Shown here piece by piece: positions 49,354-58,511 of a stretch of DNA of 64,000 nt. Below the pieces are notes generated by a model. The model searched no databases and was not told the DNA's origin. It was given only the letters and a program-made list of their open reading frames with translations. Numbering within the stretch: the first letter of the stretch is position 1; every line of letters begins with the position of its first letter. The position numbers were made by a program, and so were the translations under genes. Where the stretch lies: contig CAMBZU010000003.1 of the NCBI GenBank assembly GCA_945872355.1, forward strand, positions 1-64,000. The letters run 5' to 3'. The stretch is from Chitinophaga pinensis. Lineage in GTDB: Bacteria; Bacteroidota; Bacteroidia; UBA4408.

Positions 49354-51162
49354 TTACTTTACAATTTTTCTAGTTGTAATTTTGTTAGCTTCATTTACTT
49401 GCACAACATAAATCCCGGCAGGCCATTCAGTTGTATTAATGCTTATTGATTTCTTTCCATTTGCTGAGCTGTTTGATATTAACTGACCAGTAGCATTGTA
49501 TATTAAAACATTCGCATCTTGGCCCATTAAAGTTAGATTTAATTGCTCGTTAAAAGGCACAGGATAAATTGCATTTTTAGTTTGGCTTTGTATTGTTTGA
49601 ATTGTTGTAAGTGAACCATTAGGGGTGCTCACCACCATTCTAATCATTACATCTTCAATTTCGCGATACCGGTTAATAGCCCAGCCTGCGCCTAAAACTT
49701 CAAAAGTTTGATTACTTAAAGGCAAGGTTTGGTCTTGACCAATTGTTATACCATCGCCATTCATGATCCAAGAAACATATACACCAGAATCATTCACTGT
49801 TAAAGGCGCACTCAATAATACCTGATTCCAAGTATTATTTGTAATTGATGCATTTGGCACAGCAATATTTACTAATTCAGTACCTGGGCCATTATTTATG
49901 CCATCATTAGCGTTAACTTTTGCAGTAAATCCAACAGCTGAAGGATCTGAAACTATAAAATACTCTAAGCGTTGAATTACGAAAGGGCTAAATGGTGGCT
50001 CAAAATACACGCCAACACCGCCATTGCCGCCTTGCCAACTCAAACCTAAACCTTCGCTAGTGTTGTCACAGTATTGTAAGTTTACAAGCGCATTTAAAGT
50101 GTCAACAACAACCAATTCCATTGCTTTAGTATTGTTTGTTGGTGTTGCATCGTTAGCTAATTGAGTTTCAGAAGTGAAACGATAAGTGCCATTTGCAATT
50201 GGAGAAAAAGTACTACTTTGAGTAATAATTTGTTCATCACCAGGATTAGCCACATTAGCTGTTGAGGTGCTTGAAGTTATGAGCGTATTTGCAGCGTTTA
50301 ATACTTGCGAATAAACATTGAAGGCAGCTATATTTTGGTTTCCAGTATTTTTTACTTGACTTGTCATTTGAAAACTTGGGCCATTGTTTAATAAAAATTT
50401 TGCGCCTGTTTCGTCATTGTCATTCCACATTACAGCTGCATCAATTACTTGATAGGTTGTATTGTTAGGATAATAAAATTTTACTGCGTAATTGCTAAGC
50501 GGGTATTGCCCGTATGAGTGTTGCAGGCCAATATTTCCTGAATTGTTTTCGATGCCGATACTTAGAATATTTGCAGTTCCGGCAGATACGCCACTTTGTA
50601 ATTTATACTGAAAAGTGATAGAACTATCGATGTTACTTAAAATTATTTGGAAGCTATTTGCACCTTGTATATAACCGTTGGCTGCAGTAGGACTCCAAAA
50701 AGCTACATTTTCATAGCTTACTATCAACGTATCGTTTGTTGCATTTTGCCAATAATAACATTGGCCAGGATTTGTTGCGCCATCAAAATTAAGATCGGCG
50801 GCAAATGGTGCAATAAAATTATTGGGTTGTGCAGCTGCAGGAATTGTAGGAAAAGGAGAAGAAATTTGTCCATTAGTAAATCCTATGTATCCATTAGAAC
50901 CAATATAATATTGAGAAACGTTATACCAATAATACTGAAAATTAAATCCAATTGGAAAAGGACCTGTATTATTATCATCACTTAAACCTGTTACTTGAAT
51001 GGTGTTGGGCAAAGCAGTAATATCAATCCAAGAATATACAGGACCATTGGGCTCGTTGCTGTCTTTCCAAGTATAACCAAATATATCAGGTCCGCCAACG
51101 GCAGCAAATAAAGTAGAATAGCAGATTGTTGCAATAAAAGTTAGAAGTAAATTTCTTTTCAT
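49354..51162 (-). CDS. T9SS cargo protein with nidogen-like and CARDB-like regions
   Basis: 602 residues from ATG 51162 (MKRNLLLTFIATICYSTLFA signal peptide); the track start adds 20 residues upstream. The N-terminal domain (YIGSNGYIGFTNG, FAADLNFDGATNPG, NSFQIILSN) resembles domains common in secreted proteins of this phylum. A CARDB-like region follows (TSQVKNTGNQNIAAFNVY). The C-terminal sorting domain has NAIYPVPFNEQLNLTL and ends TTRKIVK. TATATTTG lies just 2 bases before the ATG, probably too close to act as its promoter. Confidence 0.85.
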   Translation of the reverse strand: MKRNLLLTFIATICYSTLFAAVGGPDIFGYTWKDSNEPNGPVYSWIDITALPNTIQVTGLSDDNNTGPFPIGFNFQYYWYNVSQYYIGSNGYIGFTNGQISSPFPTIPAAAQPNNFIAPFAADLNFDGATNPGQCYYWQNATNDTLIVSYENVAFWSPTAANGYIQGANSFQIILSNIDSSITFQYKLQSGVSAGTANILSIGIENNSGNIGLQHSYGQYPLSNYAVKFYYPNNTTYQVIDAAVMWNDNDETGAKFLLNNGPSFQMTSQVKNTGNQNIAAFNVYSQVLNAANTLITSSTSTANVANPGDEQIITQSSTFSPIANGTYRFTSETQLANDATPTNNTKAMELVVVDTLNALVNLQYCDNTSEGLGLSWQGGNGGVGVYFEPPFSPFVIQRLEYFIVSDPSAVGFTAKVNANDGINNGPGTELVNIAVPNASITNNTWNQVLLSAPLTVNDSGVYVSWIMNGDGITIGQDQTLPLSNQTFEVLGAGWAINRYREIEDVMIRMVVSTPNGSLTTIQTIQSQTKNAIYPVPFNEQLNLTLMGQDANVLIYNATGQLISNSSANGKKSISINTTEWPAGIYVVQVNEANKITTRKIVK

Positions 51163-51370: not shown

Positions 51371-52384
51371 TTATTGTTTAATAAATTTCTGATTTTGTAT
51401 TCCTTTTTTTGTTTGTATTTGGATGTTATAGATGCCATTGGATAAATTTTCAATTGAAAATTTTTGTTGTGAGGCGATATTTTTATACTCCAACATTTTT
51501 TGTCCATTCATGTTAAAAATAGTGACGATATTATTGCTTCCATCGGGCACATTATTAAAGTAAATAAAAGAGTTGGCAGGATTTGGAAAAACAATTATTT
51601 GATTTGTAGCTAATTCTATTTCATTATTTCCAACGGTTACATCAATGGTCAAATTATCTAAACAGAAAAATGCTGGTGTATTCATGCCAAATGCACCATT
51701 GTCTGATGAAGTTAATGTAAATTTTAAGCTGTCGAAAACCCCAAGTATGCTGCAATCTACCCATTCCCAAGTTTTTAAAATATAGTCTAAACTATCATTG
51801 GTGAAACGAAAATCAGCTAAATAAAACGCTACACTATCAGCACTTAATTGACCGCCAACATAAGCCCTTGTAGTAAGTTTAAAAAAGTCAGGAAAATTTC
51901 CTTGAGGTAAACCACTATTAGTGCCAGTTGTATCTCCAAATTTTCTTGCAAAAGTATCTCCATTCTTCATGCTGTTATAGGCGTAAGTGCCATTTGTAAC
52001 ATAAAAACCATTGATAACCATTGTTGGCGTTATATTATTTAAACGGGCAATTGCATTTTGCTGAACTACTGCATAATTTGAAGAACCTGCATATCCAACT
52101 GCAGCCTTAGCAGCATAAAGATTTGTGAAGCCTGAGGTAATAGAATCAACCATTGAAGAATAGGCAAATCCATCTACCCAATATCCACCAAATGAAGTAT
52201 CATAATTATTTGGAAAATACATGCCGCCACTTACAAAACCACCAGATTGATCACTTCCGTTCCAATAGGCGCCCATAGGTGGCGTTGGAAGAAATAAATT
52301 TTCAAAATCTGATATTATTTGTGCTTTAATAAGCAAGTTGCTAAACAACACAAGCGCAATTAAAAGAGGTAATTTTTTTTTCAT
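51371..52384 (-). CDS. DUF4465-like T9SS cargo protein under cobalamin riboswitch control
   Basis: 337 residues from ATG 52384 (MKKKLPLLIALVLFSNLLIKAQ signal peptide). The mature part looks like DUF4465: ISDFENLFLP, YWNGSDQSGGFVSGG, FGGYWVDGFAYS and later DSVAFYLADFRF. It ends with a T9SS sorting domain (IVFPNPANSFIYF ... NQKFIKQ). A cobalamin riboswitch lies 163 bases upstream on the same strand, with no other gene between. I infer a surface-exposed corrinoid-binding or uptake-accessory protein; DUF4465 members near B12 uptake genes are my recollection, not something shown here. Confidence 0.85.
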   Translation of the reverse strand: MKKKLPLLIALVLFSNLLIKAQIISDFENLFLPTPPMGAYWNGSDQSGGFVSGGMYFPNNYDTSFGGYWVDGFAYSSMVDSITSGFTNLYAAKAAVGYAGSSNYAVVQQNAIARLNNITPTMVINGFYVTNGTYAYNSMKNGDTFARKFGDTTGTNSGLPQGNFPDFFKLTTRAYVGGQLSADSVAFYLADFRFTNDSLDYILKTWEWVDCSILGVFDSLKFTLTSSDNGAFGMNTPAFFCLDNLTIDVTVGNNEIELATNQIIVFPNPANSFIYFNNVPDGSNNIVTIFNMNGQKMLEYKNIASQQKFSIENLSNGIYNIQIQTKKGIQNQKFIKQ

Positions 52385-52546
52385 GTTTTTTTGTTTTTCT
52401 ATTATTTTTTTAAACCATTGATTCATCAATATCATCAACAGGAATAATAAAACAGGCAAACAAATTTGTAGCGGCATATAGCTGCATAGCTTTCACAAAA
52501 ATGATGTCCTGCTTTTTTCCCGAAGCTGGCAATCTAATTTTGCATT

Positions 52547-52693
52547 GGCAGGTCTTCTGACTTGCTTTATCTAGCGTCTTCCCTCATAACTATTATGCTA
52601 TAAAGTGACATTTAATGCTAGAAAAAATTGTTTTTGTGAAACAATTAAAGCTTACAGCAGCGGGAACTGTTACTGATTTACACAGTATTCCCT
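52547..52693 (-). promoter_or_regulatory. Cobalamin (B12) riboswitch
   Basis: Minus-strand landmarks in the right order: GGGAAT, AACAGTTCCCGCTGCTGTAA (the CCCGC/CTGTAA core), a TGTCACT segment, GAGGGAAGACGC, and the closing AGAAGACCTGCC box. These match the AdoCbl riboswitch consensus closely. It sits in a leader of about 350 bases between a predicted promoter and the DUF4465-like gene. A GCAGG downstream (near 52507) could pair with CCTGC of the closing box as part of the expression platform; that is speculative. Confidence 0.94.
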
Positions 52694-52737
52694 TTTAATT
52701 TTTTGATAAAGTCTTTATCTAAAAAACCAACGCAGGG

Positions 52738-52745
52738 CAAATGTA
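52738..52745 (-). promoter_or_regulatory. Predicted -7 promoter element upstream of the cobalamin riboswitch
   Basis: Minus-strand TACATTTG, perfect TAnnTTTG, 44 bases before the riboswitch GGGAA. Confidence 0.6.
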
Positions 52746-52833
52746 TGAAATATTTTAAATACCACAACTTAAAATTTTAAACGATGAAATGCATTTATCA
52801 GCAAATAAAAGTTTGTGAATTCAATATTAATAT

Positions 52834-57269: not shown

Positions 57270-58511
57270 TTATTTCACCAATATCTTGCCATTTGAAATG
57301 CTTACAGAGTTACTTAAAAACTCATAAAAATAAATACCTGAAGTAAGCGTATTTTTATTGATGTTAATTTGATTTAAGCCACTTTTAATAGGTGTTGGTT
57401 GGGCATATACTTGTCTGCCTGTTATATCTGAAATTAGAAAGATAGTATTGTTGTAATCTTGATTTGCATTGATTGATAGCACTGCATCATCCATCATAGG
57501 ATTTGGATAAACAGTTACATTCAGCTTGTTATTTGTGTTTTTGATACCAACACTTGTAACAGCATAATTAACACTTGTACTTGAGCATCCATCAAGGTTT
57601 GGATCAGTTGTAAAAGTATAATCTCCGGCAAAAAGTGGTGTGTAATCTATATTTGTTGCACCTGCAATCGGATTACCATTAAAAAACCATTGTCCGTTTG
57701 TAGAAGCTGTTAAAACCAGCCCATTGAAAGTAATGGTTGGTACCGGAGGAACATTGTTAAATGGCACAGAGACATCCCAAGTGTTACCATTCAATGTTGC
57801 ATTGTTGCTGCTTTGAAGATCAGCGCTGCTTGTGCCAGTGCCTTCATTAAAACGCCAATAAGAAACCAATCCAACAGCTGCAGCAGGGTCAATATGTTTG
57901 TTCATATTTGCCATTAATTGAGCAGCAGTAAGGGCACGGTGCCAAATGCGCACTTCATCAATTTTGCCATTGAAAAAACGAGAAGCAGCTTGAACAGGGT
58001 CACTTAATTTACCAATGGTTAGCGGATAATTTGGAGAAGTAACAATACTACCTTGAAAAGCAACCGAGTTTTGTTCTACTCCATTGATAAAAACTTTCAA
58101 ATTTTGGCCATCATAAGAACCTGCAACGTGTGTCCAGGTGCCTAATGTTAGCGTGCTGGCAGGAGAGACAGCTTCTTTCCAACTTGTTGGATTTTGATTT
58201 ACATCTAAACCAGCAATGTTAAATGATAATTCACCAGTGCCTCCACAGCGCAATACAAAGCCACCCTCGCTATTGCTCCAGCCATGCTTGCAAACGATTG
58301 TGTTATTGGCCGAATTAAAAGCCCATGCATTAGAATTAATCCATGCTTCAATTGTTATTGAATCGGTAATGTTTAAGTTGCTTTGCAGTCCTGGACTTGC
58401 GTAGTTGCTAAAGCCATCAAAGGTAATGGAGTTGCTGTTTTCTATGCATACTTGGGCGTTTGCATGTTGCAAAGCAATTGTTAAAAGGGCTAGCGTAAAT
58501 ATTTTTTTCAT
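57270..58511 (-). CDS. T9SS cargo protein with LamG/concanavalin-like domain
   Basis: 413 residues. Signal peptide MKKIFTLALLTIALQHANAQ, a LamG_3-type domain to about residue 215 (SNSITFDGFSNYASP, WTHVAGSYDGQNLKVFINGV, GKIDEVRIWHRALT, YWRFNEGTG), a short Ig-like region (NGQWFFNGNPIAGATN) and a sorting domain (VTVYPNPMMDDAVLSI ... NGKILVK). Probably a surface glycan-binding protein. It is the intact counterpart of the truncated cargo at 34.9 kb. Confidence 0.9.
   Translation of the reverse strand: MKKIFTLALLTIALQHANAQVCIENSNSITFDGFSNYASPGLQSNLNITDSITIEAWINSNAWAFNSANNTIVCKHGWSNSEGGFVLRCGGTGELSFNIAGLDVNQNPTSWKEAVSPASTLTLGTWTHVAGSYDGQNLKVFINGVEQNSVAFQGSIVTSPNYPLTIGKLSDPVQAASRFFNGKIDEVRIWHRALTAAQLMANMNKHIDPAAAVGLVSYWRFNEGTGTSSADLQSSNNATLNGNTWDVSVPFNNVPPVPTITFNGLVLTASTNGQWFFNGNPIAGATNIDYTPLFAGDYTFTTDPNLDGCSSTSVNYAVTSVGIKNTNNKLNVTVYPNPMMDDAVLSINANQDYNNTIFLISDITGRQVYAQPTPIKSGLNQININKNTLTSGIYFYEFLSNSVSISNGKILVK

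Follow-up and report, generated by a model that had tools for sequence, protein, structure and literature searches.

Which function is served by a cobalamin riboswitch whose direct downstream gene codes for a T9SS-tagged DUF4465 protein and stands apart from the btuB receptor gene? This question is raised by a locus on the minus strand of the window analyzed here, a stretch of 64,000 nucleotides from Chitinophaga pinensis (contig CAMBZU010000003.1 of assembly GCA_945872355.1). We suggest that the locus is, in all likelihood, a one-gene unit for times of B12 scarcity, with an exported BtuJ-like capture protein that would feed a separately encoded BtuB-BtuG transporter. The observations behind this proposal are the RNA family, the protein family, its predicted fold, the sorting tail, the presence of a type IX secretion system (T9SS) gene, the btuB-btuG locus elsewhere in the genome, and conservation in the genus; B12 binding, the sense in which the switch acts, and the export of the protein and its hand-over of B12 are proposed by analogy with characterized relatives.

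The DUF4465 protein and its predicted fold

The features of the locus are compiled in Table 1. When the region is aligned with its counterparts in three other members of the genus and a further member of the family, only ATGAAAAAAAAATTAC is conserved, so that the start codon of the 337-residue protein is the ATG at position 52384 (MKKKLPLL). An in-frame ATG at 52477 was ruled out as the start, since the sequence upstream of 52384 lacks conservation and no conserved coding sequence is found there.

Table 1. Features of the riboswitch-DUF4465 locus, in the order of transcription
Feature	Coordinates	Strand	Evidence
Bacteroidota-type promoter, TTG-N19-TACATTTG	52738..52767	-	sequence; same-place motif in most Bacteroidota relatives
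Cobalamin riboswitch aptamer, RF00174	52530..52746	-	89.4 bits; first ~8 nt shared with the promoter -7 element
Post-aptamer hairpin CCAGCTT-CGGGAAA-AAGCAGG, probable P13/L13 arm	52508..52529	-	alignment and ~30 leaders; L13 assignment putative
Coding sequence, 337 aa, DUF4465 and T9SS sorting domain (P0001), BtuJ-like	51371..52384	-	profile matches, alignment
Signal peptide MKKKLPLLIALVLFSNLLIKA, no lipobox cysteine	52322..52384	-	sequence inspection
DUF4465 domain (PF14717), residues 65-245	51650..52192	-	146.7 bits; model matches 9HMU
DE loop NGTYAYNSMKNGD with Tyr134 (BtuJ1 Tyr146)	51956..51994	-	comparison with BtuJ1
HI loop GMNTPAFFCLD; Phe239 where BtuJ1 has Tyr245	51656..51688	-	comparison with BtuJ1
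T9SS type A C-terminal sorting domain, residues 265-335	51380..51592	-	PF18962, TIGR04183, fold match

An ordinary, putative N-terminal signal peptide without a lipobox is visible by inspection of the sequence. The DUF4465-like body ascribed to the protein was borne out by the Pfam profile PF14717, which is matched with 146.7 bits against a cut-off of 25 (E 1e-42); likewise, the T9SS sorting domain scores above the cut-off with both PF18962 (E 1.3e-10) and TIGR04183 (E 2.7e-13). An AlphaFold2 model of the protein, built from 26 sequences and with a pLDDT of 84, contains the augmented jelly-roll fold. In a structural comparison by Foldseek, its best match in the PDB is the B12-bound DUF4465 complex 9HMU (E 2.8e-17; TM 0.81 over the target), followed by BtuJ1 with cyanocobalamin (9FCT/9QPM), and the tail of the model matches the tail of a T9SS cargo protein in complex with the translocon (8GLK_D; TM 0.85 over the target). 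A sequence search against the PDB also returned BtuJ1 (9QPM) as the best match (E 1e-18).

Ligand binding in the family and altered pocket residues

The function of DUF4465 has now been characterized: BtuJ1, BtuJ2 and six additional members, eight divergent proteins in total, bind B12 (PMC12751083, PMC13398666), and binding is tight for the two Bacteroides thetaiotaomicron proteins, reaching sub-nanomolar affinity in the case of BtuJ1 (PMC12751083). This published binding and the match of the modelled fold lend support to the earlier guess that the protein of the window captures corrinoids. It shares with BtuJ1/BtuJ2 (PDB 9FCT, 9QPM, 9I2L) the DUF4465 jelly roll, the DE-loop tyrosine, the NTP motif of the HI loop and, by prediction, control by a cobalamin riboswitch and secretion; however, the B. 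thetaiotaomicron proteins are lipoproteins encoded within btu operons, whereas the protein studied here carries a T9SS tail and is encoded by a stand-alone gene.

The protein also differs from BtuJ1 in the ligand pocket. Tyr146, Asn241 and Thr242 of BtuJ1 are kept (Tyr134, Asn235, Thr236), but two of the three "halo" tyrosines are replaced by phenylalanine (Tyr97 by Phe86, Tyr245 by Phe239). Tyr245, situated in the HI loop, has been termed a hallmark of the family and described as universal or 97% conserved (PMC12751083, PMC13398666). Among the members examined, phenylalanine occupies this position in 23 of 52 T9SS-tagged proteins and is absent from it in the other 16, whose tails or anchors are of different kinds. 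Neither GMNTP, which makes up the remainder of the HI loop, nor the tyrosine of the DE loop varies. Given that it lacks the hallmark tyrosine, we file the protein as a BtuJ-like member of DUF4465 and not as BtuJ itself. The exchange of Tyr245 would remove a hydrogen bond to a corrin side chain, so that the affinity of the protein or its choice of cobamide may differ from that of BtuJ1. Among binders other than F2I9N3 of Fluviicola taffensis, measured B12 binding by a Phe239-type member was not found in the literature.

The two phenylalanines, and the finding of the one at the hallmark site only in T9SS-tagged forms among the members examined, might also indicate that the domain has drifted to another corrinoid, such as cobinamide or a lower-ligand variant, or to a different ligand altogether. 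We consider such a drift quite improbable, since GMNTP and the DE-loop tyrosine do not vary and the Phe forms are as strongly linked to riboswitches as are the Tyr forms (e.g., at loci L005, L006, and L007). A BtuJ-like cobamide binder is the reading that we retain, and the tyrosine-to-phenylalanine change that roughly every second T9SS form shows at the hallmark site lends itself to testing which residues the pocket requires.

The cobalamin riboswitch and its leader

A covariance-model search recovered the cobalamin riboswitch proposed in the initial annotation over the full length of RF00174 (model positions 1-189; 52746-52530, minus strand) with 89.4 bits (E 8.9e-21), compared with a gathering score of 31.5 bits. 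The promoter element noted in front of it has the -33/-7 form of the Bacteroidota, with TTG at 52767-52765, a spacer of 19 nt and TACATTTG at 52745-52738. A TAnnTTTG motif recurs at the 5' edge of the aptamer in most Bacteroidota relatives, while about 0.09 occurrences per 95 nt are expected in the window. The Rfam match takes in the -7 element as its first 8 nt, and the transcript would accordingly start near 52734.

The aptamer is followed by a hairpin with a CGGG(A) loop (52508-52529, minus strand), a feature common to most of the Bacteroidota btu riboswitch leaders examined. Its stem shows compensated changes in relatives (e.g., GCTT/AAGC to ACTT/AAGT in genome G003), its CGGG loop is kept in the alignment and in the leaders of about 30 loci, and it probably forms the kissing-loop arm. 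With its complete aptamer, a promoter at the 5' edge and the CGGG-loop hairpin afterwards, the element resembles other Bacteroidota RF00174 riboswitches and differs from them in nothing beyond ordinary variation.

Between the aptamer and the gene lies a leader of 145 nt. No intrinsic terminator was found at the locus, the leader folds no better than shuffled sequences (z -1.1), and neither a clear terminator nor a clear masking of the ribosome-binding site was seen that would account for the switch. The btuJ loci of B. thetaiotaomicron are riboswitch-regulated (PMC13398666, PMC12751083), and by analogy with the riboswitches measured in that bacterium (PMC12751083), repression of the DUF4465 gene by B12 is expected.

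Association with riboswitches among relatives

In a sample of 197 genomes of the class, 59 contain DUF4465 above the cut-off, with 67 domains altogether. A same-strand RF00174 riboswitch is present within 6 kb upstream of 61 of these domains, in 55 of the 59 genomes, and the homologues are hence clearly associated with B12 riboswitches. Thus none of the three outcomes that the initial annotation had named as refuting its reading was observed, the RNA matching RF00174 and the protein DUF4465. Sixteen of the linked domains follow the riboswitch directly (<700 nt) and 45 belong to later genes of operons, mostly positioned about 2.1-2.2 kb from the riboswitch, a distance that corresponds to the length of a btuB gene. 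When the protein was used as a query against GTDB genomes, most of the DUF4465 loci found were likewise preceded by a same-strand riboswitch of the cobalamin clan.

A stand-alone gene and the B12 economy of the genome

The next minus-strand gene begins about 150-210 nt past the stop codon of the DUF4465 gene, and the downstream gene differs in the three other genomes of the genus; the description of the DUF4465 gene as the only downstream gene agrees with this lack of a conserved neighbor. Given the same strand, a gap of about 200 nt and no recognized terminator, one might still envision that the riboswitch controls, in addition or even for the most part, a longer transcript extending over the gene of the next T9SS protein (49354-51162). 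We regard such a transcript as highly improbable: the downstream gene is convergent in genome G001, G003 has another gene next, in G002 the homologue of the 49354-51162 protein is located about 6 kb away with other genes in between, and among relatives it is the DUF4465 gene that makes up the direct unit. The unit is accordingly treated here as consisting of one gene.

Eight genomes of the order were compared for gene arrangement. The riboswitch-DUF4465 pair stands alone, with differing neighbors, in all four genomes of the genus and in a member of another genus of the same family (G006). In genome G005, by contrast, riboswitch, BtuB, DUF4465, Thiamine_BP and propeller genes form a single operon, and two of the eight genomes possess the riboswitch and lack DUF4465. 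The earlier claim of a gene standing outside the btuB locus consequently holds for the genus and fails for most relatives, in which the gene is part of a btuB operon.

In the genus, the btuB-btuG genes occupy another riboswitch locus. In the genome under study, this locus (contig C15) comprises a riboswitch (102.7 bits) and genes for a BtuB-like receptor, a Thiamine_BP protein and a DUF5074 propeller lipoprotein, the last of which is close to BtuG (E 2.5e-60 to BtuG3 in the BtuB3G3 complex 8P97). The small Thiamine_BP (PF01910) protein, whose gene is flanked by btuB and the btuG-like gene in the genus (L046, 9696-10022, minus strand), is also encoded in the operon of G005. The genome encodes the B12-dependent MetH (1749 bits), and a search for CobQ in this 96% complete assembly gave no match above the cut-off; from these two observations, the organism is probably incapable of B12 synthesis and dependent on import.

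Predicted export through the type IX secretion system

Tails were classified with simple profiles and patterns for 68 distinct DUF4465 proteins from the gathered loci, a sample weighted to relatives of the protein studied here: 52 carry a T9SS tail, six a PEP-CTERM tail and four a lipobox. In the published domain counts, the T9SS tail is represented by the entry IPR026444. Such a C-terminal domain has been counted before in 229 of 824 DUF4465 proteins (IPR027828 with IPR026444; PMC12751083). Export via T9SS in place of lipidation, as proposed in the initial annotation, therefore probably applies to the present protein but is not a peculiarity of this organism. The protein belongs to the published class, with which it shares the domain and the sorting tail; that class, however, has been reported as a count only, and the two reports (PMC12751083, PMC13398666) do not deal with the riboswitch layout, the split loci or the Tyr-to-Phe change. 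DUF4465 proteins with T9SS tags, and the binding of B12 by them, had entered the literature by 2025-2026. Nothing on point was found there on T9SS together with a cobalamin riboswitch or btuB.

The genome itself encodes the translocon protein SprA (sprA; 2647 bits), a sign that it possesses the T9SS, and yields about 90 sorting-domain matches. Two additional T9SS-tagged proteins are encoded near the locus on the minus strand (49354-51162 and 57270-58511), one of them with a Laminin_G_3 domain.

A T9SS type A tail fits release as well as surface anchoring. The protein might hence act away from the cell as a soluble or vesicle-borne B12 scavenger, in line with the work of BtuJ1/BtuJ2 on extracellular vesicles of B. 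thetaiotaomicron (PMC12751083) and with a gene that does not share a transcript with BtuB. We consider this possibility rather unlikely, as the operons of most relatives also encode BtuB and a BtuG-like surface lipoprotein, an arrangement that points to action at the receptor.

A BtuH-like partner family

In many relatives, the DUF4465 gene is followed by a gene for an unnamed protein of about 330 amino acids, which bears T9SS tags in Bacteroidota and PEP-CTERM tags in Burkholderiales. In two Burkholderiales loci (L032, 2179-3873; L034, 3801-5660), the partner domain and DUF4465 are joined in one open frame that terminates in PEP-CTERM and lies behind a cobalamin riboswitch; in a third (L033), the two are adjacent genes. 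Within the class sample, both genes are present in 52 genomes, DUF4465 only in seven, the partner only in 14, and neither in 124 (p 8e-27 by a Fisher test that takes no account of relatedness). A same-strand riboswitch is located within 5 kb upstream in 10 of the 14 partner-only genomes, with distances read from tables.

The partner of the genome under study is a T9SS-tagged protein of 326 amino acids (contig C82; L047, 10658-11638, minus strand), whose gene lies downstream of a DUF6580 gene, a CWC/DUF5522 gene and a probable AdoCbl-type riboswitch. The candidate element scores 42 bits against a cut-off of 50, its counterpart at the same place in G001 reaches 54 bits, and it is probably the third B12 riboswitch of the genome. 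The DUF6580 membrane protein behind it (L047, 11990-12556, minus strand) is possibly an inner-membrane component of a corrinoid transporter.

Beyond its sorting tail, the partner family carries no annotation from Pfam, NCBIfam or solved structures. Among 843 frames, the profiles of the partner and of the BtuH domain match each other only (E 3e-6 to 1e-3 and 1e-5 to 5e-3), hhalign aligns the two with 92.8% (E 4e-7), and a direct PDB profile search with the partner gave only E 0.033 to 8BLW. Asn399 and Phe401 of BtuH2, which touch the nucleotide loop of B12, fall on the conserved ENxF motif of the partner; residues are numbered as in 7BIZ after a shift by 100, and under this shift His476, Tyr510, Trp511 and Trp577 are likewise correctly placed. 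As these four ligand residues lie in a region without a reliable alignment to the partner, the family is not filed as BtuH. The predicted fold was set aside as a guide to function (pLDDT 71; PDB matches limited to the T9SS tail and to weak beta-sandwich hits at a TM of about 0.2), and descent as a DUF4465 paralogue was ruled out (hhalign 0.7%).

We take the partner to be a distant T9SS-exported BtuH-like protein and a candidate B12 binder. BtuH2/BtuGH of B. thetaiotaomicron (PDB 7BIZ, 8BLW), B12-binding surface proteins of the same regulon, would be its distant relatives, in contrast to the DUF4465 protein, for which no sequence relation to them was found. As a newly recognized, specific candidate for B12 binding at the surface, the BtuH-like partner is a fresher lead than the DUF4465 protein.

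Proposed working of the locus

When intracellular cobalamin is low, the riboswitch would permit expression and the BtuJ-like DUF4465 protein would be made. Its signal peptide would take it across the inner membrane, and its C-terminal domain would direct it to the type IX system for passage through the outer membrane. Outside the cell, the loops of its jelly roll would hold a cobamide, which would then be passed to the BtuB-BtuG transporter produced from the separate riboswitch locus; cobalamin bound to the aptamer would turn expression off again.

On a broader view, the BtuJ-like DUF4465 protein and the BtuH-like family may form a lipoprotein-independent pair for extracellular cobamide capture, exported via T9SS in Bacteroidota, PEP-CTERM-tagged and sometimes fused in Burkholderiales, that is the usual form outside gut Bacteroides and has been split into separate riboswitch units in this genus; to our minds, the case for this generalization is evenly balanced. 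Three points are new: the genes are divided among separate riboswitch units, many T9SS forms have lost the hallmark tyrosine, and DUF4465 has a BtuH-like partner. A structurally solved B12-binding domain that environmental Bacteroidota combine with a different mode of export and a riboswitch of its own would extend the view of B12 scavenging beyond the lipoprotein model of the gut.
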